The notes under the pieces were generated by a model. It had not been told where the DNA came from. It saw nothing but the letters and a program-made list of their open reading frames with translations, and did not search any database. Source: Clostridia bacterium (GTDB taxonomy: Bacteria; Bacillota; Clostridia; Oscillospirales; Acutalibacteraceae). From it: a stretch of 64,000 bases of DNA. Position 1 is the first letter of the stretch. Every line of letters starts with the position of its first letter. Location of the stretch: NCBI GenBank assembly GCA_017430535.1, contig JAFRMR010000003.1, positions 62,001 through 126,000 of the forward strand. Reading direction: 5' to 3'. A program made the translations under genes and the position numbers. Shown here piece after piece: positions 51,361 to 62,157 of this stretch.

Positions 51361-54300
51361 TTACTGTAAAAATCTTTCAATAAATTCACACACTTTTTCG
51401 CCTGAATGGCCGTCACAATATGTCAGATATTTATTCTTAAAATCATTTTGTGGGGCATAATCATAATTGTTTATATTTTTAATTCTCTCAAAGAGTTCTT
51501 CAGATGATTTAATAATCGGGAAAGGAGCAGTCTTTGAATAATCCAGCGTGAAATTTACATCACGATATCTGTTCTCATAATCATATCCTGAAAAGAACAC
51601 TGGTTTATTAAGAAGAACAGATTCAAACAGCGTATCTCTGAAATCGCCTACAATAACATCGGCTGTTACAACCAGTTCTCTCAGACTGAGATTTGAGTTT
51701 ATAACCTTACTGAAGCCTTTTATTTCGAGAGTATTGGGAACCTCATTCAAAAGCTCTTTATGATTTCTTGTATCTATTATTACAACATATTCATCACCAA
51801 TAAGTTTTGATAAAGAATCAATATCAATCAGATTGTAGTAATAATATTTATCCTGCATTTTTCTGAGGTTTGGCATATACAGAAGAATCTTTTTGTTTTC
51901 AGCTTCGGGAAATTCTGTATAGACTTTTTCAAACGCATTTGATTTAAAGGATTCATCCCAATAAACATCGGTAACAGGACTTCCTTTAATAATATGCGAG
52001 TCATCAAGCGCAACTCCATACTTTTTTTGCGACTCAGAAGCTGCCAAATCGGAAGAGGCGTTAATTGCGCTTACGCTGAGATTGTGCAACGAATCGTTAT
52101 ATTTTTTCATTGACTTAATCCGGGCATGTGAATCAAATCCCTTGCGAATCAGTTCAAACGCAGATGACTCAATTACAATCATTTTACTGTTTTCGCGGAG
52201 TTCCAGTCCGGACAATACAGATATTGACCCATTCACTATTATAAATGCCGATGCAGCCATCAAAACCGCCAATTGCTTTTTCCTTTCATCATCCAGCTTA
52301 CTGCAACTGAATTCGATCAAATTCAATTCTTTTTTTGATGATAAAGAGGATTTAATCGATTTAAGCGCATCAGGTAAAGATTTTGAGCTGTAAATAACCA
52401 ACACCTGATTACTGTCAAGAACTGTATTTTTGCATGCCTGATAATAATCAAGTGAAAAACACTCAGAATCTCTGAGCACCTTTTTATATAGCTTAACATA
52501 CTCTCTGCTTTTTTCAATTTCCGAATCTTTCAGGCAGAAACCCGATGCACAGTCATCACCCGACTCAATCTGATACAATTCATCATATTTGATTTTTGTA
52601 ACAGGATCGCTCTTGAGATAGGACATAGTGACAGACATTGTGCCTCTCGTTCTCGGTATACCATGTCTGAAATTGTTTATATCTTCTTCTGTGTAAGGAC
52701 GGGCAAAAGGACGCTTTTCGCCAAAAACACTGACAGCGTCAATTAAATTGCCGATATTATTATAAATAAATGGATCCGAACGATTATCCTGATAATAATA
52801 AAGCAATGAATCAAATAAAGACTTGTCAAAACTTTTCCTGTCATTTAATTCAAGCCCGGAATATCTGTCGGCATATTCAGGAAGAAGCAATTCCATAGCA
52901 TTATATAAATCAGTATCACACTGAATCGGAACTTTAACCGGTACAATTTTACCATCTTTCAGTGTATACTCTTCGATGCTTTTATATGGCATATTTGCAA
53001 ATATGGCTTCAATAAAGAAAAACTGTATTCCTGTTGATGTAAGTTTATATCTTATGCAGTTTCCTTCTGTAGGGAGCAAAGCCCTGGAATAATAATAATA
53101 AACCGGAACATCTTTGCCTAACGCGTAATCCCATAAACGGCTGTGGCATGTTTGATTATATCCTCTTCCGAAAAACTCAACAAAAGCATGCTTTTCATCA
53201 GGATCAACTTCCTGCAGCAGATAATCGCAAACAATTTTCCTTTGATTGGCTGCATAATCCAAAAGGTATTCATGATACTGATTTGATGTGCTGAGAATAG
53301 CTGCCAGTTTTTTTGCCGGCTGTCCATCGGACCAGTCATCAAAATCTATACTGTCCAAATCAATATGAGGAAACACTTTGCTGAACTCTTCTTTGGAATC
53401 AAAGCATGCTGCTTTAAGGAATTTTTCCTTATCATGTATCTCGTTGAAATTGCCTCCGTAATTTGCAAAAAATTCATCATCAACCGAATCGATATACGAA
53501 GGAACACGCCAGACTCTTCTCGAAGCATAAATATATTTTGTTTTAAGGCTGAGATTACTTTTTTTAATAATTGCATCTGCAATTCTCTTTAAATGGTGTC
53601 CGTCACGGCTGACAAAATAAAGGGTTTGAAATCCCTTATCAACAGCATCCCTGACAACCCAATCAATATATGAAACAAAAAGTGGAGCAACATAGTCAAT
53701 TACAAAATCAGCAGATTTGAATGAATATTCATTTTTCATTCTCGCCTGCATAGCCATCAATTTGTACGCATCATAACAGCCGATTTTTTCTGCAATTGTT
53801 TTTTCAATGTCAGTGAACTCAGGCTTATTGACAAGCCTTGTCTCAATACCGAGGAGACGAGGCTGCTTTTGATCGGCATTTAAATTATCGCCGGTATGAA
53901 TCCACTTACCATAGCCGTAAAAAGGCTTTTGGTTTCTGTATACCTCAAAAAACAGGAACTTATTATTCTTTAATGTTCCGTACTCATTTGATAAGAAAAT
54001 CTCAATATCATTGAAAATCGGATCTGCTTTTTCAAGCATTTTTCTGATTACTGAAACAGGTAAATACATATCGGAAATAAGAATTACCTTTTCTCCTTCT
54101 TTCAAAAGAGATTTCAAATTATCAATTTCCTCGGAAACAGGCAGAACTGAATCAATTTCAATCTCGCATTCTAGATTCATAAGATAATCACGCTGCTCAT
54201 CCGTAAGATCTTCGAGCAGCTGCAATTCGTCATATATCATGGAAAGCGTAATTTCACGCTTAATAGTCTTACGCTGTTCCATAGATTTATTCATATACTC

Positions 54301-55866
54301 TCTTATACCAAACTCAGCGTTTTTACGGCGCAAAGGGAATCTTTCTATGAATAATTCATTAAAATTCAGAGCATTATTATCGCGAAGAGCATCTCTCACT
54401 GCATAGAAAATACTATCTGGTTCCAATCCCTTTCTGGAAATCAGAGTATCAAAAATGTCAAAACTGTAAAGAGTGGGATATTCTTTATCCTTGATTTTAT
54501 AATCCAAAGTAAATTCAATTATTTTATTTAAATCATCATCGCCGGCATACTCCCATTGCCTCTTTACAAAATCATCCAGGCTTTCCTCTTCATCATACCC
54601 TTCGTAATTGCTTAACGCTTCCAGCATTTCATCAAACGAACGGCAGATTACGCCTCGGGTATTGCTGTAATACTCCTCATCACTGTTCATACCGGTTGCT
54701 TTAGCAAGATCATCTCCGTCAAATATATACCTGATATAATTTTTAACCCCGGCAAGAACAAAATCCGAGATAATACTTGAATAGTCATAAATAAGCAGAT
54801 CCGCTTTATTCATAACTTCATAAAAATCATTATTATTATCCCAAAACAGAAAATAAGGTCTGTCTCCCATTGTCTCTTTAGCCGAAACAAATGCAGTTTC
54901 ATTCTCCATCAATGGGTGCATTTTAAAAATTAAAAGGATATTGTTGTTTTTACAATAACTGTAAAGTTTTTCAAGATCGGGAATTGCATCGGAAAAAGTA
55001 TTTCCTCTGTTTTTTCTGAAAGTAGGAGCATAAACCGCAATTTTTGTATTACTATCCAAACCATCTCTTTTGATAATACTGTGATCGAAAGTTGAAATCG
55101 GTTTGTATTTATTCTGATAAATACATCTTGCATATCCGGCCCTCAAAAATGCATCTTGATCTACACCGATTTGTTGAGCAAAGTATTTTTCCTGCAATGA
55201 ATTAACAACACATACTATCTGGTTGTTTAAATAGAATGTGTTATGCTTTATATATTTAGGACATAAATTAAACCTTAAATCGTCATCATCATCAGTTCTT
55301 AATCTTTCTACAGGTTTAAAACCCCAACCATGCCACATATTTAAATATTTAATATTATTTGAAAGAGGGATTTTCTGCCTGATCTGTTCATCTGCCATCA
55401 CGCCTGCTACATTGTATAAATAGCCGGCGCTTGAACTTCCGTCAGAGTATGCTTTATATCCGAGTTTTCGGATAACAGCGATTGTATCTTCATCATTCGT
55501 AATCCAAGCAGCTTTAATATCTGATCTGTATTCATTTATGAACGCAAATAAGTACTTGGGATTTCCGACAAATTCATTCCCTGTGTTTCCTGATTTAAAA
55601 ACCCAGATATGGTTTTTGTCAGTATCACTAAGCCAAATTTTTAATTCATCAAGTTCAGCTTTATCTGAAGAAAAATCGGGAATATCGTTTTCTTCCGATA
55701 TATTGTTATTCAGATCAAGATAAAAATCGCCTTTATTCTCTTTTATTCTCCTGAGATCATCTTTTTCTTTCTCAGAAACCTGATATATATTATAAGGTTC
55801 CAAGGTCCGGAGCAAAACTTTTTTTGCCTTGCTTTTTAACCTGACGGTTAATTTCTTTTTACTCAT
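51361..55866 (-). CDS. TagF-HAD-TagF-like three-part surface polymer protein
   Basis: A 1501-residue protein of at least three parts. Part 1 (about 70-450) is a CDP-glycerol:poly(glycerophosphate) transferase-like domain with the active-site histidine in MWHGWG (about 178-182), FKMHP (315-319) and YDYSSII (360-366). Part 2 (about 465-700) is a HAD phosphatase-like domain with DIFDT (470-474), ILISDMYL (596-603) and HTGDN (657-661), followed by a VSRDGHH segment (753-759), the arrangement of COG5610-type HAD proteins. A region of unknown type (760-1150) follows. Part 3 (about 1155-1500) resembles a second TagF domain but its catalytic motifs are degenerate (no WHG, no HP, VGDFRDT for TDYSS), so it may only bind. 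No membrane span is seen. The start is ATG 55866 after AAGGAAG. It lies 16 bases after the SDR gene. Confidence 0.8.
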   Translation of the reverse strand: MSKKKLTVRLKSKAKKVLLRTLEPYNIYQVSEKEKDDLRRIKENKGDFYLDLNNNISEENDIPDFSSDKAELDELKIWLSDTDKNHIWVFKSGNTGNEFVGNPKYLFAFINEYRSDIKAAWITNDEDTIAVIRKLGYKAYSDGSSSAGYLYNVAGVMADEQIRQKIPLSNNIKYLNMWHGWGFKPVERLRTDDDDDLRFNLCPKYIKHNTFYLNNQIVCVVNSLQEKYFAQQIGVDQDAFLRAGYARCIYQNKYKPISTFDHSIIKRDGLDSNTKIAVYAPTFRKNRGNTFSDAIPDLEKLYSYCKNNNILLIFKMHPLMENETAFVSAKETMGDRPYFLFWDNNNDFYEVMNKADLLIYDYSSIISDFVLAGVKNYIRYIFDGDDLAKATGMNSDEEYYSNTRGVICRSFDEMLEALSNYEGYDEEESLDDFVKRQWEYAGDDDLNKIIEFTLDYKIKDKEYPTLYSFDIFDTLISRKGLEPDSIFYAVRDALRDNNALNFNELFIERFPLRRKNAEFGIREYMNKSMEQRKTIKREITLSMIYDELQLLEDLTDEQRDYLMNLECEIEIDSVLPVSEEIDNLKSLLKEGEKVILISDMYLPVSVIRKMLEKADPIFNDIEIFLSNEYGTLKNNKFLFFEVYRNQKPFYGYGKWIHTGDNLNADQKQPRLLGIETRLVNKPEFTDIEKTIAEKIGCYDAYKLMAMQARMKNEYSFKSADFVIDYVAPLFVSYIDWVVRDAVDKGFQTLYFVSRDGHHLKRIADAIIKKSNLSLKTKYIYASRRVWRVPSYIDSVDDEFFANYGGNFNEIHDKEKFLKAACFDSKEEFSKVFPHIDLDSIDFDDWSDGQPAKKLAAILSTSNQYHEYLLDYAANQRKIVCDYLLQEVDPDEKHAFVEFFGRGYNQTCHSRLWDYALGKDVPVYYYYSRALLPTEGNCIRYKLTSTGIQFFFIEAIFANMPYKSIEEYTLKDGKIVPVKVPIQCDTDLYNAMELLLPEYADRYSGLELNDRKSFDKSLFDSLLYYYQDNRSDPFIYNNIGNLIDAVSVFGEKRPFARPYTEEDINNFRHGIPRTRGTMSVTMSYLKSDPVTKIKYDELYQIESGDDCASGFCLKDSEIEKSREYVKLYKKVLRDSECFSLDYYQACKNTVLDSNQVLVIYSSKSLPDALKSIKSSLSSKKELNLIEFSCSKLDDERKKQLAVLMAASAFIIVNGSISVLSGLELRENSKMIVIESSAFELIRKGFDSHARIKSMKKYNDSLHNLSVSAINASSDLAASESQKKYGVALDDSHIIKGSPVTDVYWDESFKSNAFEKVYTEFPEAENKKILLYMPNLRKMQDKYYYYNLIDIDSLSKLIGDEYVVIIDTRNHKELLNEVPNTLEIKGFSKVINSNLSLRELVVTADVIVGDFRDTLFESVLLNKPVFFSGYDYENRYRDVNFTLDYSKTAPFPIIKSSEELFERIKNINNYDYAPQNDFKNKYLTYCDGHSGEKVCEFIERFLQ

Positions 55867-55882
55867 CAATAAAACTTCCTTT

Positions 55883-56956
55883 TTATTCAGAGAGAATATA
55901 TTTTAAAGTATCATATGTATGTTTCAATCCTGTATCAGGGTCAAACAGCGCTTTCCAGCCAAGCGCTTCAAGCCTGTCGCTGTTAAGGGTGGAATTCTTC
56001 ATAGGATTAAAAGATTTTTTCTCATTTTCTTCAGGAACATCCATAATAAGATTCACACCGGAAACCGTTGAAATTTTCTTTGAAAGATCAAGAATACTGA
56101 GATATGAATCATGATTGGAAATATTATATGCTTTCATACTGCTTCCGTTAAGCAATACTTTTATTATTGCAGATGCACAATCAAGGCAATAGCAATAACT
56201 TCTGACTTGCGAGCCATCGCTTTTTAAAATGATATCTTCGCCTCTTATTGCTCCGTAAATAAATGCAGATGCAACTCTGCTGTCAGTTTCTGAAGCTGTA
56301 GGGCCATATATGTGTCCGGGCCGGACAATAACAGAATCAATATCATATTCTGAATTGTAGCAGGCAAAAAGAGTTTCGGTTGCAATTTTCCCGATTGAAT
56401 ACGAGCTTCTCGGGTTAAGAATATCAATATATCCGTAGGAATCCTCAGCCAAAGGTTTATTGTGATCGCTGATTCCGTATACTTCGCTGCTGGAAACATA
56501 CAATATTCGCTTAACACTGTTCTCGTGGGCATAATTAAGCAACTGATATGCTCCGCCAAAATTGCCGACCATTGTTTCTGCCGGTTCATTCATTATAATT
56601 TTGGGCGAAGCATTACTTGCCCCATGAATAATATAATCAAATTTTCTGTCAAATTTGTTATCTTCCGAGGTAGCGTCATACTGGATAAAACTCACATATT
56701 CTTTTTCAAGAAAGCAGCCAAATCTCTGCTTCATCCGCTCAATAGACCTGCCGGCAAGATAAATAAATATTTTATTTGTATGTGTTTCGTTATATCTGAT
56801 AAGAATATCCGCAACAGAAGAACATATTAAACCGGAAGCTCCTGTAATAAGTACTGATCTTCCGCATAATCTGTCCAGTTCCGGAATAACAGAACTAGCC
56901 TTATCAATATCACTTATCCAGTTTTCCGAGTCATAAATCCTGTAATATGAAATCAT
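55883..56956 (-). CDS. NAD-dependent epimerase/dehydratase-family protein (extended SDR)
   Basis: A 357-residue extended short-chain dehydrogenase. Seen: the nucleotide motif ITGASGLICSS (37-47), in which the third glycine is replaced, DYIIHGASNASP near 107-118, YVSSSEVYG, the catalytic YSIGK near 185-189 (Tyr and Lys), and VRPGHIYGP. The first 30 residues before the dinucleotide fold are unusual for the family. It lies one base after the cytidylyltransferase gene, so the two enzymes probably act on the same compound. Possibilities are reduction of ribulose 5-phosphate or epimerisation of a nucleotide sugar for a surface polymer; the substrate is not fixed by sequence. Confidence 0.85.
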   Translation of the reverse strand: MISYYRIYDSENWISDIDKASSVIPELDRLCGRSVLITGASGLICSSVADILIRYNETHTNKIFIYLAGRSIERMKQRFGCFLEKEYVSFIQYDATSEDNKFDRKFDYIIHGASNASPKIIMNEPAETMVGNFGGAYQLLNYAHENSVKRILYVSSSEVYGISDHNKPLAEDSYGYIDILNPRSSYSIGKIATETLFACYNSEYDIDSVIVRPGHIYGPTASETDSRVASAFIYGAIRGEDIILKSDGSQVRSYCYCLDCASAIIKVLLNGSSMKAYNISNHDSYLSILDLSKKISTVSGVNLIMDVPEENEKKSFNPMKNSTLNSDRLEALGWKALFDPDTGLKHTYDTLKYILSE

Positions 56957-56957
56957 T

Positions 56958-57668
56958 TTATCTCAACCAATCTGATCTTTTAGTACTGAGCAGCGCTTTG
57001 AAAATATCTATGTCATCTACTGTTGTTAACTTAATATTCTTCTCTGATCCTTTTGAAAAATAGACCTTTCTTCCCATTTCAATATATAAGGTACAGGAAG
57101 CAACAGAATTGACAATTCCTTTTTCAAGAGCATCTCTGTGAACCTGACATATTTCACCTAAGCGAAATGCCTGGGGTGTCTGGGTCCTTTTCAAATCATC
57201 CCTTGGAAAACTCTCTGTTGAGCTGGCACCGTCTTTAGTCTGAAGCATAGCTTCCGCGCACGGAATAACGGTAATAGCATTGCCGTTCTCATTTGCAACC
57301 CTTATACAGTCAGATATTATTTCCGCCGAAACCATAGGCCTGATAGCATCGTGAATCAATACAAGATCATTTTTATCGCAATTACGCTCAAGTTCAAATA
57401 AACCATTTCTGATAGAATCCTGACCGTTTTCTCCGCCGGTAACAACTGAAGTTAATTTAGTTATATTAAACTGTTTAGCATACGCATGCAAAACACTTTC
57501 CCAGCCCTTAATGCATACAATTGCAATTTTATCTATCTGAGGGTGTTTTTGAAACTGTTCCAATGTGTATATAATAACAGGCTTTTCATTTACAGTCAGA
57601 AATTGTTTCGGGATATCCTGATTCATTCTGGCACCGGAACCGCCGGCAATAATAAGTGCAATATTCAT
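56958..57668 (-). CDS. IspD/TarI-type cytidylyltransferase
   Basis: A 236-residue nucleotidyltransferase that makes a CDP-alcohol from CTP and a sugar-alcohol phosphate. Seen: IAGGSGARMNQDIPKQF (about 7-23) with the CTP-binding loop and Lys, GGENGQDSIRNGL near 78-90, HDAIRP (about 107-112), KRTQTPQAF, and the end KLTTVDDIDIF. IspD (MEP pathway) and TarI (ribitol 5-phosphate) share these motifs. Its place with an SDR and two TagF-type polymerases favours a TarI-like role making CDP-ribitol or CDP-glycerol-like donor, but a housekeeping IspD role cannot be excluded without knowing if the genome has another copy. The ATG follows AAGGAGACACTT. First gene of the leftward unit. Confidence 0.85.
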   Translation of the reverse strand: MNIALIIAGGSGARMNQDIPKQFLTVNEKPVIIYTLEQFQKHPQIDKIAIVCIKGWESVLHAYAKQFNITKLTSVVTGGENGQDSIRNGLFELERNCDKNDLVLIHDAIRPMVSAEIISDCIRVANENGNAITVIPCAEAMLQTKDGASSTESFPRDDLKRTQTPQAFRLGEICQVHRDALEKGIVNSVASCTLYIEMGRKVYFSKGSEKNIKLTTVDDIDIFKALLSTKRSDWLR

Positions 57669-57799: not shown

Positions 57800-57827
57800 T
57801 ATGAAAAACAAAACGGAGGATTCAATC

Positions 57828-59720
57828 TTGACAGAATACAGCGTTATAATCAATGAAGCTGAAATAATAAACAATTATTTAAGAATTGAGATTGCTGTCG
57901 TTTGTAACGGTATTCATCATCCGCCAAAAATGAGAGCAGTTTTTAAAAGCGGAACAGATATCAGACGTTTACCTTTATTGATGAAAAATGTATTTTATCA
58001 AACTGAAAATGACAGTAATATTGTTTATTATTCATATGAATATGACATAATAAACCTCTTTTCATGCGAAAAGGCACCGGATATGATATCTGTTTATTTT
58101 GAAATAACAACAGATGATAATTGTGCAGAAGAAATTCCTTTCTATATTTCACGCGGAATTGCAAATAACAATAAGATCAGAATTTACGACAGATATATCG
58201 GCGGCGAACTGTTTAACGGCATTGCATCATATAAGCCCAATTTTTCAAACAATAACGGTGATACCTGTTATTTATTAAATGCCGACCCTGAAAACAAACG
58301 GCTGGAATTACAGCTTAAAAAACAAAAAAAAGATAAGGTAAGCGGTTCAAAGTTTAACGCTTTTAAAAGCTTTGCAAAAACGATAGTCTTGGTATTGGTT
58401 TTATTCAGCATATTCTTGCTTATTCCATTATTTTTAATCAACAGTTTACTCTCAACAATAGGAGTAATCCCACAGAGAAATGCGCCTCAAACTAATGGCT
58501 TTAAGTCAAAATTTGCAGGTCAGTTAAAAGCTGAAATTGCATCATATATATTATTTGCAATAAAAGATGAAGGAAGAGCCCGTAAAATCATTGCATATAA
58601 GGATAATTACCTGACATGGTATTACAGCAGATTATGTAAAAAGCCTGTTGTTAAAAATCGTATTTCTTTCATATCGGGCAGAAGAGATGAAATGGGAGGA
58701 AATGAAAAATTCGTTTATGATATATTAAAAAGCAGAAATAATATTGATTTTAAATTCATTTTGCAATCAGATCTTGACAAAAGCTCAAAGATCAGTAAGA
58801 AGAAAGAATTCTACAAGCTATATGCAACCAGCAGGATTGTAATTGTTGATGACTACTTCAATTTACTTGACACAGTAAAAAAACGAAATGATGTTACCCT
58901 TATTCAGCTATGGCATGCCTGCGGAGCATTCAAGACCTTCGGCTTTTCAAGATTAGGAAAACCGGGAGGCCCTAAACAAACCTCAACAAGCCACAGAATG
59001 TACGATTACACTATCGTAAGCTCTGAAAACATTATTAAATACTATGCTGAAGGATTCGGCCTGAGCGACAGAAATATTCTGCCCACCGGCATACCGAGAA
59101 CAGATATTTTCCGTGACAGTGAATATGCAGATAGAATAAAAAAAGAGTTTTACTCAAAACATCCTCAGCTTACAAATAAAAAGATAATAATGTTTGCGCC
59201 TACTTTCAGAGGGGCCGGGCAGAACAGCGCATATTATCCTCTTGATGTTTTTGACCCCGACAGATTTTATGAAAAAATCGGCGATGAATATGCAGTTATT
59301 ATAAAACTACATCCATTCTGTAAGGAAAGATTTAAAATTGAGGATAAATATAAAGATTACATAATCGACCTTTCCGATGAAGATGAGCTTAATGATTTAT
59401 TATTTGTTACCGATTTGCTGATAACGGATTATTCAAGCGCAATATTTGAAGCTTCTCTTCTTGATATTCCGATGCTTTTCTTCTCTTATGATTTATACCA
59501 TTATATATCGGACAGAGACTTTTACTGCGATTACGAAACATTTGTTCCCGGTAAAATTGTATTCACACAGCAAGCTCTTGAAGAAGCCGTTATTAAATCA
59601 GACTGCGAAACAGAAAAAATCAAACCTTTCAGAGAAAAGTTCTTTTCAGGTTATGACGGCAAATCAAGTGAAAGAGTTGCAAACTTTATTATAGATATTC
59701 TGGAGGGCAGAAATGAATAA
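57828..59720 (+). CDS. CDP-glycerol glycerophosphotransferase-like polymerase (TagF/TagB family)
   Basis: A 630-residue enzyme. It has an N-terminal beta-rich domain (1-165), one membrane-insertion helix (about 185-208) and a C-terminal GT-B-like transferase (about 275-625) with LWHACGAFK (His363), FAPTFRG, IIKLHPF and TDYSSAIFEA. TagF-type enzymes add glycerol phosphate or ribitol phosphate units from CDP-donors to lipid-linked teichoic acid at the inner membrane face. The start is TTG 57828, eight bases after GGAGG. An in-frame ATG at 57801 lies before that ribosome site, and a reading back to 57486 would cover the opposite gene. All motifs are intact here, in contrast to the third part of the giant protein. 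Confidence 0.9.
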   Translation: MTEYSVIINEAEIINNYLRIEIAVVCNGIHHPPKMRAVFKSGTDIRRLPLLMKNVFYQTENDSNIVYYSYEYDIINLFSCEKAPDMISVYFEITTDDNCAEEIPFYISRGIANNNKIRIYDRYIGGELFNGIASYKPNFSNNNGDTCYLLNADPENKRLELQLKKQKKDKVSGSKFNAFKSFAKTIVLVLVLFSIFLLIPLFLINSLLSTIGVIPQRNAPQTNGFKSKFAGQLKAEIASYILFAIKDEGRARKIIAYKDNYLTWYYSRLCKKPVVKNRISFISGRRDEMGGNEKFVYDILKSRNNIDFKFILQSDLDKSSKISKKKEFYKLYATSRIVIVDDYFNLLDTVKKRNDVTLIQLWHACGAFKTFGFSRLGKPGGPKQTSTSHRMYDYTIVSSENIIKYYAEGFGLSDRNILPTGIPRTDIFRDSEYADRIKKEFYSKHPQLTNKKIIMFAPTFRGAGQNSAYYPLDVFDPDRFYEKIGDEYAVIIKLHPFCKERFKIEDKYKDYIIDLSDEDELNDLLFVTDLLITDYSSAIFEASLLDIPMLFFSYDLYHYISDRDFYCDYETFVPGKIVFTQQALEEAVIKSDCETEKIKPFREKFFSGYDGKSSERVANFIIDILEGRNE

Positions 59721-62157
59721 GTTTTTTGATACAGCTGATTTCATTACAACCGATTTTATAAATTACACCGCAGCAGTTGATTCTGTCTGGTCTGAAATGA
59801 GAGAACGGGACAGGCTGTTTCAGCATACCGATCTCCCCTGTTCAAATGGACTACCGATGTTTACTCAAAATTTTGAAATTGCTAAAACCGAAAGCACAAA
59901 AATAATCTTTTCAGCATTGGGCTGCATTAATATTTTTATAAACGGTAAAAGAATCGGCACCGGTGAACTTAACCCCGGCTGGACTGATTACAATAAAAGA
60001 GCGCTTTCTATTGAATACGATATATCCGGATCAGTCAGACCCGGATTAAACAGAGTGCTTGCGGTTGTTGCGCCCGGCTGGTATTCGGGAAGAATATCCG
60101 GCGGATATTACGGCAACCACTCGCCTGCTTTTGTTGCTGTAATCAAAAACGGAAATGACACAATACTTTCAACTGATGAAAGCTGGCTTTGCAAGGTCGG
60201 CGGTCAGATCAGAACAGCGGACATCTGGGATGGTGAATTCCGTGACGGCAGAGAGGATAATTATGAAGATATTTCCAAAACAGATTATCCGCTTGACGGT
60301 TGGAAAGCCTCCTATATTTATGATTATACCGGTGTTGTAACGCCGTTAATCGGTCCTGAAATCAGAGTCAGAGACAATCTTACGTTAACCCCTGTTTCTC
60401 TGAAAAAATCCGATGGTATTATCGATAACGGTACAGATTTCGGGAAGCTCAGGTATTCCGACGAAAATGCAAATCTCCCTGTTAATTTAAGCAAAAATGA
60501 AAAGCTGACTGTTGATTTCGGCCAGGAAAGCGTTGGATGGGCGGTTATTAAAGTATCCGGGCCAAAAGGCACAAGGATTAAGATACGATACAGTGAATTC
60601 CTTAACGACAGCGGCCGGGAAGACAGAGGGAACGACGGGCCGGAGGGCTCGGTATACACCATAAATCTCCGTTCGGCCCTTGGCAAAGCATACTATATAC
60701 TTTCCGGTAAATCATCTGAAATTTACAGACCGACTTTCACATTTTTCGGCTACAGATATGTGGAAATCAGCACAGATAATGATGTTACAATTGAAAATAT
60801 ATGCGCTGAAGTTGTAGGCACTGCAACGGAAGAAATCGGAACCATAGAAACAGACAGCACTTTGGTAAACAAACTTATTTCAAATACTTTGTGGGGCCAG
60901 AGAAGCAATTATCTGAGTGTTCCCACAGATTGTCCCCAAAGAGATGAAAGGCTTGGCTGGACCGGAGATGCCCAGGCTTTCAGCATTACCGCAGCATATA
61001 ATGCCGATGTATATGAATTCTTCCGTAAATGGATGCAGGATATGCGTGATTCCCAAAGCGAAGACGGCGGTTACGGCTTTGTTAACCCCAAAGTATCCTA
61101 CTGCGACGGTGATGATGCCAGCGCCTGGTCTGATGCCGGAATAATAATACCATATAATATGTATATGATGTATGGTAACAAGCAGATTATCGAAGAGCAT
61201 TTTGATTCCATGGAAGCCTATATGAACGGCATAATGAAAAAATTCGGTCCGTCCGGTTCAGGCCCGGTATTTGGGGACTGGCTTGCATACGATCAATGCT
61301 CAAATGAATTTATCTCCTCCGCTTATTTTGTTCACGACTGCGATCTGATGATAAAAATGAGCCGGACAATCGGCAAAGAAGATAAAGCCGTTTATTATAC
61401 ATCAATGAGGGAAAAAGCCTACAATCATTTTAAAGAGAATTATCTTAAAGACGGATTCCCTGCTGAGACAACTCAGTGCAACAAGATACTTTCTCTTGCA
61501 TTTGATCTTATTGATGAAGATAAGCGCAATACTCTTTCCGAAATGCTTGCCGGGCAGATAAAAGAAAACGGCAACAGATTATCCTGCGGCTTCCTCGGCA
61601 CATATAACCTTTGCCCTGCACTTTCAAAATTCAATCAGGATAAAACAGCATATAATCTTTTACTGCAAACTGAAGAGCCTTCCTGGCTTTACAGCGTTCT
61701 TCAGGGCGCAACCACAATATGGGAAAGATGGAACTCATATACTATTTCAGACGGTTTCGGCGATGTAGGAATGAATTCATTCAACCACTACGCTTACGGC
61801 TCAATAGTTGAGTGGCTTTACGGCTATGCTGCAGGAATTATGCCGGAAGAACCGGGATTCAGCAAAATAAGACTTTCGCCGAGAATTGATAACAGAAATG
61901 CTGATGAAATTCCTGACGGTCAGAAACCCATAAATCACCTGAAAGCAACATATAAATCTGCATCCGGTTTAATTAAGAGCGAATGGAATACGGAAAACGG
62001 ATTTATCTACAAGTGTGAGATTCCCGTAAATACTGTTCTGTATCTGCCGGTAACCGGAACAGATATTACTATGAACGGAAATTCAATAACACCTGATATT
62101 AAAGACGGCAAAGCTGTTATTGAATTATTGCCGGGAAAATACGAGTTTATTCAGTAA
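59713..62157 (+). CDS. Alpha-L-rhamnosidase, GH78
   Basis: An 814-residue inverting glycosidase that removes alpha-L-rhamnose. Seen: N-terminal carbohydrate-binding-like domain with INIFINGKRIGTGELNPGWTDY split over about 77-98, a linker domain, the GH78 catalytic alpha/alpha barrel (about 390-720) with PTDCPQRDERLGWTGDAQAF around 399-418 holding the conserved acids, and a C-terminal beta domain from about 725. There is no signal peptide, so it acts on imported rhamnosides. The ATG lies inside the end of the tagF-like gene (eight-base overlap) after CTGGAGGGCAGAA, so both are translated from one mRNA. Whether it degrades plant rhamnosides or trims a rhamnose-containing surface polymer is open. 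Confidence 0.92.
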   Translation: MNKFFDTADFITTDFINYTAAVDSVWSEMRERDRLFQHTDLPCSNGLPMFTQNFEIAKTESTKIIFSALGCINIFINGKRIGTGELNPGWTDYNKRALSIEYDISGSVRPGLNRVLAVVAPGWYSGRISGGYYGNHSPAFVAVIKNGNDTILSTDESWLCKVGGQIRTADIWDGEFRDGREDNYEDISKTDYPLDGWKASYIYDYTGVVTPLIGPEIRVRDNLTLTPVSLKKSDGIIDNGTDFGKLRYSDENANLPVNLSKNEKLTVDFGQESVGWAVIKVSGPKGTRIKIRYSEFLNDSGREDRGNDGPEGSVYTINLRSALGKAYYILSGKSSEIYRPTFTFFGYRYVEISTDNDVTIENICAEVVGTATEEIGTIETDSTLVNKLISNTLWGQRSNYLSVPTDCPQRDERLGWTGDAQAFSITAAYNADVYEFFRKWMQDMRDSQSEDGGYGFVNPKVSYCDGDDASAWSDAGIIIPYNMYMMYGNKQIIEEHFDSMEAYMNGIMKKFGPSGSGPVFGDWLAYDQCSNEFISSAYFVHDCDLMIKMSRTIGKEDKAVYYTSMREKAYNHFKENYLKDGFPAETTQCNKILSLAFDLIDEDKRNTLSEMLAGQIKENGNRLSCGFLGTYNLCPALSKFNQDKTAYNLLLQTEEPSWLYSVLQGATTIWERWNSYTISDGFGDVGMNSFNHYAYGSIVEWLYGYAAGIMPEEPGFSKIRLSPRIDNRNADEIPDGQKPINHLKATYKSASGLIKSEWNTENGFIYKCEIPVNTVLYLPVTGTDITMNGNSITPDIKDGKAVIELLPGKYEFIQ

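Follow-up and report, generated by a model that had tools for sequence, protein, structure and literature searches.

A predicted Bcs3-type polymerase with a degenerate TagF-like fourth domain in a clostridial genome

What kind of enzyme is encoded by a single reading frame of some 1,500 codons that carries a TagF-like domain at each end? The frame lies on the minus strand (51361 to 55869) of the window, by which we mean the whole stretch of 64,000 nucleotides analyzed here (positions 62,001 to 126,000 of contig JAFRMR010000003.1, from a Clostridia bacterium of the Acutalibacteraceae). Comparison with Bcs3, which polymerizes the Haemophilus influenzae type b capsule (PDB 8a0c, 8a0m, 9h50, and 9h5i; PMC10299916), indicates that the first three domains are of the Bcs3 type (CroT-CrpP-CriT) and do not form a new kind of enzyme. 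The protein is thus probably a Bcs3-type multi-enzyme polymerase that builds a ribofuranose/polyol-phosphate, teichoic-acid-like surface polymer, a reading based upon homology, colinearity, and the conservation of active-site residues. An earlier note on this DNA had proposed a polymerase with built-in chain-end editing. Most of the mechanism proposed there is already known, and what is new is the dead fourth domain, a real and conserved variation on the Bcs3-type machine.

The frame is free of internal stops and holds 1502 codons counted from TTG at 55869, which bears out the single frame of about 1500 codons described in the earlier note. The likelier start is the ATG at 55866 (1501 codons), which is preceded at eight bases by AAGGAAG, a stretch resembling a ribosome-binding site; because this ATG stands at 55866, the end coordinate of 55866 used in the earlier note fits the ATG start. 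The gene and its parts are as follows (residues counted from the TTG).

51361..55869, minus strand: predicted four-domain Bcs3-type polymerase gene (one open frame; Bcs3 match over residues 99 to 1091)
54505..55617, minus strand: CroT-like TagF domain, residues 85 to 455 (PF04464; alignment to Bcs3 CroT)
53800..54504, minus strand: CrpP-like HAD phosphatase domain, residues 456 to 690 (alignment to Bcs3 CrpP)
52585..53799, minus strand: CriT-like domain, putatively a ribofuranosyl-5-phosphate transferase dependent on phosphoribosyl pyrophosphate (PRPP), residues 691 to 1095 (alignment to Bcs3 CriT)
52420..52584, minus strand: variable linker, residues 1096 to 1150 (identity of 33% between the window protein and its relative L006 and of 35% between relatives L008 and L009)
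51364..52419, minus strand: C-terminal degenerate TagF-like domain, residues 1151 to 1502 (PF04464; TarL and TagF by profile)

The first three domains and Bcs3

Residues 99 to 1091 align as one stretch with residues 13 to 1012 of the Bcs3 chain (phmmer, E 8.3e-152; E 1e-295 with a profile built from seven proteins), such that CroT, CrpP, and CriT follow each other in that order, within one chain and colinearly over about 1000 residues. In Bcs3, CroT is described as a TagF-like ribitol-phosphate transferase, CrpP as a HAD phosphatase, and CriT as a ribofuranosyl-5-phosphate transferase that uses PRPP and has a phosphoribosyltransferase-like core; after these come a polymer-binding SH3b domain and predicted C-terminal helices (PMC10299916). 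The 16 active-site residues taken from that paper were mapped by eye on the alignment (the number in the Bcs3 chain is the paper number plus 3). Fifteen of them are kept, both in the window protein and in all seven aligned proteins: H96, G99, K101, H233, D386, K548, S678, R679, D680, S707, R708, R712, E818, E874, and S884. The place of the remaining one, T825, is taken by Asn in the window protein (Asn905) and in L006 and by Thr in the other five. Unlike Bcs3, the window protein has about 84 residues before its first domain.

The N-terminal TagF domain was correctly recognized as intact in the earlier note, with the motifs WHG, HP, and DYSS and a PF04464 score of 123.6 bits. Its base His180 and second His318 are kept in all seven aligned proteins, as are its motifs and Gly183, which stands, in place of Pro, at the ribitol pocket. 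Gly at G99 is described as a marker of ribitol and Pro as a marker of glycerol (PMC10299916), and the domain is predicted to be a CDP-polyol (CDP, cytidine diphosphate) phosphate transferase of the ribitol type. The HAD-like domain, also recognized earlier (DIFDT, SD, and GDN), aligns with CrpP and keeps the nucleophile Asp471 and the motif III Lys634 in 7/7 proteins.

The region of roughly 390 residues that the earlier note had left without a name is present and can be named as CriT, since it aligns with that domain of Bcs3. Apart from the Asn905 at the T825 place, the Asp/Glu pair and the PRPP-binding residues are in place (Ser754, Arg755, Asp756, Ser783, Arg784, Arg788, Glu898, Glu954, and Ser964), and Ser754-Arg755-Asp756, Glu898, Glu954, and Ser964 are kept in each of the seven aligned proteins. 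This gives a name to a region without a model in the Pfam copy used, in which no credible match was found: none for the window protein and only matches at E 0.024 and 0.19 for the seven members. Pfam thus lacks a credible match for this domain although the structure of a homologue has been solved.

By analogy with Bcs3, the enzyme would add ribofuranose and then polyol phosphate by turns at the free end of the polymer. PRPP would supply the ribose-5-phosphate that CriT transfers to the terminal polyol, CrpP would remove the 5-phosphate of the newly added ribose in every cycle, and CroT would then use a CDP donor to add the phosphate of ribitol or of a similar polyol. What the domains do, which polyol is used, and that the product is exported to form wall teichoic acid or capsule are inferences. 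According to PMC10299916, no polymerase was yet known for complex wall teichoic acids, and the Gram-positive homologs of Bcs3 still had to be assigned a place.

The fourth domain

PF04464 is found twice in the window protein, at 123.6 bits for the N-terminal copy and at 113.3 bits for the C-terminal copy, each scored alone (cut-off, 22.1 bits), and its C-terminal copy is present in all four of the four-domain proteins. The C-terminal domain also matches TarL over profile positions 25 to 401 (E 9.7e-30), and TagF is matched by profile too. These sequence profiles place it inside the TagF superfamily, to which both end domains of the window protein belong and which includes TarL and TagF (PDB 8va1 and 3l7i); a position outside this superfamily, which would have refuted the earlier note, is thus not seen at the level of sequence. 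It is not, to judge from its motifs, an active TagF: in contrast to those enzymes, in neither of which a HAD or CriT part was aligned, it lacks the catalytic His and DYSS.

In the window protein, Ser1235 stands at the position of the catalytic His, GDFRD stands for DYSS, and HK stands for HP. Across the four C-terminal domains, the catalytic His is replaced by Ser, Lys, Asp, and Glu, and the place of DYSS is taken by DFRD, DYRD, DYRN, and DYRN. The loss of the catalytic His and of HP reported earlier is therefore upheld, although the second-site His remains in the window protein, as it does in L006; in L008 and L009, Gln is aligned with this site and a His stands two columns earlier. By comparison, both His residues and DYSS are kept in all 17 of the stand-alone or N-terminal TagF domains compared (3 from the window's own genome and 14 from the best-scoring loci of the family sample), and both His residues are kept in 7/7 CroT domains, where DYSS appears as D[YF]SS. 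These replacements suggest that the C-terminal domain is most probably without activity, a pseudo-transferase.

In a phylogenetic tree, the four C-terminal domains form one group (99/99) and the CroT domains another (100/100), with a 98/97 branch in between. Because that branch separates both groups, the domain appears to have been fused on and not copied from CroT; internal duplication of CroT as its source is rejected in view of the 98/97 branch and the separate 99/99 grouping. Between L008 and L009, the nonsynonymous divergence (dN) of the C-terminal domain is 0.39, compared with 0.13 to 0.20 in the other three domains; between the window protein and L006 (synonymous divergence, dS, not computable), it is 0.52, compared with 0.28 to 0.30. 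The C-terminal domain thus evolves faster, its dN exceeding that of the catalytic domains by a factor of about 1.8 to 3. Its dN/dS of about 0.2 between L008 and L009 (where dS is about 1.9, near saturation) indicates that it is nevertheless under constraint.

The C-terminal domain follows CriT, the place that SH3b has in Bcs3. SH3b begins at paper residue 1037 of Bcs3 (PMC10299916), and the Bcs3 match of the window protein ends at chain residue 1012; no SH3b was found by sequence after CriT, and a degenerate TagF-like domain is present instead. Since SH3b is absent by sequence, the protein is regarded as a variant that would work like Bcs3. Truncations that break the SH3b domain of Bcs3 were reported to be inactive (PMC10299916). 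The catalytically inactive TagF-like protein Cps7A was reported still to let Cps7C/Cps7D form long chains (PMC11666461), an earlier example of a TagF-like protein acting other than by catalysis. We tentatively propose, by analogy, that the C-terminal domain either takes the part of SH3b, holding or positioning the growing chain, or sets chain length in some other way. The suggestion in the earlier note that the dead transferase could hold the acceptor chain is accordingly plausible. Such a natural exchange of the polymer-binding module could be used to test how these machines hold the chain.

Several points weigh against these readings of the protein and of its fourth domain. Three-domain relatives exist that have no C-terminal domain, so a holding domain of such a kind would not be generally needed. 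The net charge of the window's C-terminal domain (residues 1151 to 1502) is -6 (-6, 0, -8, and +1 across the four); binding of a polyanion is not favored by this acidic net charge, although a local patch could serve. The CDP-polyol may be other than ribitol, since the SDR (short-chain dehydrogenase/reductase) encoded next to the polymerase is of the extended type, unlike the genes in the TarJ position elsewhere. Finally, the window's genome has another TarI elsewhere, on contig C27 near 558 kb, where it adjoins a TagH-like ATPase (under its cut-off).

It is conceivable, if on balance doubtful, that the C-terminal domain is purely structural, serving dimer contact, membrane association, or docking to an export machine without binding the polymer. 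Its rapid change, the acidic net charge of two of the four domains, and the fact that three-domain relatives manage without it are all consistent with such a role, and for the C-terminal helices of Bcs3 a role in membrane association or protein contacts has been suggested (PMC10299916). However, several of the motif positions common to the four domains appear to sit at the active-site motifs of active TagF enzymes, which points to more than a scaffold.

We consider it unlikely that the domain is instead a working transferase whose active site has changed and which adds a different unit, a branch or a cap, to the polymer. The motifs GD[FY]R[DN] and KY[LF]TYCDGH are common to 4/4 C-terminal domains, a His persists at or two columns before the second site, and the domain is under purifying selection. 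However, none of the four retains the base His (Ser, Lys, Asp, or Glu takes its place), the raised dN sets the domain apart from the catalytic ones, and both His residues are described as crucial for TagF-like enzymes (PMC11666461; title of Schertzer 2005).

Editing of chain ends by the HAD domain, or recycling of the CDP product, is highly improbable, despite the intact HAD motifs. The domain is aligned with CrpP, for which the step published in 2023 is the removal of the 5-phosphate left on the new ribose by CriT (PMC10299916), and the adjoining CriT domain would create exactly that 5-phosphate. In view of this alignment and the 15 of 16 residues kept, the HAD step is most likely routine 5-phosphate removal. 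Of the two substrates suggested earlier, removal of a phosphate at the polymer end agrees with the homology to CrpP, whereas removal from the product of the CDP donor finds no support; chain-end editing as a new mechanism is rejected, as CrpP of Bcs3 carries out the same step routinely in each cycle (PMC10299916). An origin of the frame by a joining of neighboring genes, whether by chance or in the assembly, can be dismissed, three-domain relatives notwithstanding, given the identical four-part order in three other assemblies at 36 to 57% identity.

Relatives and a second pseudo-TagF case

The same domain order, which the earlier note had suggested searching for, is found in L006 (57% identical over the full alignment), G176 (37%), and G252 (36%). 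L006 comes from an uncultured Ruminococcus (RUG11149) and was obtained by a contig scan, which finds close relatives only. PMC10299916 mentions homologs of the entire Bcs3 sequence in Gram-positive bacteria. Among the top-ranked papers of our literature searches, none was found to describe a Bcs3-type protein that carries a TagF-like domain at its C-terminus; the layout may be among the Gram-positive homologs covered by PMC10299916.

Distribution counts include the window's own genome. Of 300 genomes sampled from the family, 136 match somewhere, mostly via TagF domains only; among the matches listed, at least six encode a protein with CroT, CrpP, and CriT (three four-domain and three three-domain). 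A CriT profile found seven genomes at E 1e-60 or better among 398 genomes of the family, a sample that overlaps the first; three of their frames measure 1473 to 1513 residues, and four measure 1028 to 1066 residues, too short for a C-terminal domain. Within the genus, 1/45 genomes matched (E 1e-30), and the genus of G176 gave 2/6. The order and class samples gave two genomes each (2/394 and 2/391) better than 1e-60, the same two (G000 and G101) in both, and the phylum sample gave 1/398 with a single-sequence query. None of the 37 matching plasmid records, and none of the seven phage records, covers at least 80% of the query. The sporadic occurrence in the genus would be in keeping with a surface-polymer locus that moves between strains.

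The three-domain relatives L010, L011, and L012 (about 1025 to 1031 residues as translated), which come from the same bacterial family as the window, have the same three enzymes, at 38 to 45% identity to the window protein per domain, and differ from it in lacking the C-terminal TagF-like domain. In L010, the Bcs3 match ends at chain residue 1021, before the SH3b position, and no SH3b was found by sequence. All three finish with a short, basic tail (net charge of +6 to +10 in the final 20 to 24 aligned residues), and the frame in G1480, too, ends soon after CriT. In G089, a TagH-like ABC ATPase (264.7 bits, under the cut-off of 538) is encoded two genes away from the three-domain relative. The one in G100 adjoins TarI (NF001183, 374 bits; cut-off, 166), followed by a gene that we take to be TarJ from its position; NCBIfam gave no match for it at E 1e-20.

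Weak CriT-like matches in the order sample (E 1.2e-39 to 8.1e-16, in 12 of the 14 genomes listed) and the class-sample matches in G202 and G1200 were not counted as the same machine. A large frame in G860 (L038:1-3087, plus strand; 1556 residues in the genome) appears by eye to join a GT4-type transferase to a HAD part and to a CriT-like part that is distant (135.9 bits), and so would show a different fusion partner for the phosphatase-ribosyltransferase pair.

A second case of a motif-less TagF-like domain occurs in G169 and G246 (L064:3196-5598 and L065:3378-5777, both minus strand), in proteins of about 800 residues in which a degenerate TagF-like domain, devoid of WH, HP, and DYSS, comes after an intact TagF and which contain no HAD or CriT. 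Such a domain was seen only in these two among ten stretches (L057 to L066) picked from the family-sample matches mainly for long frames. An hhalign comparison matches it to the window's C-terminal domain at 98.4% (E 9.1e-15, 360 columns), and the tree groups the two sets at 94/84, which is not firm. The active-TagF profile gives these domains 95 and 98 bits, more than the 83 and 89 bits that they reach with the C-terminal-domain profile, so that separate decay and a common origin are equally possible. A broader and rather unlikely scenario would have a dead TagF recruited as a polymer-gripping and chain-length module in place of SH3b, with the same development arising again on ordinary TagF polymerases in the same family and with the machine acting as a polymerase of complex (ribose plus polyol) wall teichoic acid in clostridia.

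Neighboring genes

The polymerase gene is the third of three closely spaced minus-strand genes, and a transferase gene lies divergent to them.

56958..57668, minus strand: IspD/TarI-type cytidylyltransferase (Pfam), first gene of the presumed operon
55883..56956, minus strand: extended SDR of the NAD-dependent epimerase/dehydratase type (Pfam), tightly linked and upstream of the polymerase gene
57801..59720, plus strand: divergent TarL-like transferase (PF04464, 275.9 bits; start at ATG 57801 by eye)

The locus places a Bcs3 homolog beside an IspD/TarI-type cytidylyltransferase in a clostridial genome, and this enzyme is presumed to be the source of the CDP-activated polyol. In the window, the cytidylyltransferase and SDR are separate genes, whereas in the Bcs3 system CDP-ribitol is described as being made by one enzyme, Bcs1 (PMC10299916). 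The same three genes stand in a row at the L006 locus, where the cytidylyltransferase is 80% identical to that of the window, the SDR 59%, and the polymerase 57%. All NCBIfam models score the cytidylyltransferase just or well under their cut-offs, and it is 32% identical to the genome's own TarI. Relatives of it occur in 29/31 genomes (own included); an origin as the inherited housekeeping IspD of the genus is not favored, the best match outside its own genome being 38% identical as against 80% for L006. Two IspD-family matches in relatives within the genus (L087 and L089) have one TAA inside each frame.

The closest PDB relatives of the SDR are a putative nucleotide sugar dehydratase and UDP-glucuronate decarboxylases. 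A general partnership of the SDR with such polymerases was not found, as 3/8 searched genomes match. For G176 and G252, where the identity is 32%, the match is either about 85 kb distant or on a different contig, and no IspD-like neighbor of it was seen by eye among the listed frames.

The divergent transferase has intact WHA, HP, and DYSS motifs and reaches 345 bits with the TarL model, below its cut-off of 1000. Elsewhere in the same genome, a separate teichoic-acid-type cluster (L035:5305-12107) encodes a TagH-like ABC ATPase, TarI, and two TagF-like proteins; it also includes a gene in the TarJ position and a frame that by eye resembles a glycosyltransferase. In the window, the TarL-like gene is immediately followed, at 59713 to 62157 on the plus strand, by a frame encoding what appears by eye to be an alpha-L-rhamnosidase-like protein.

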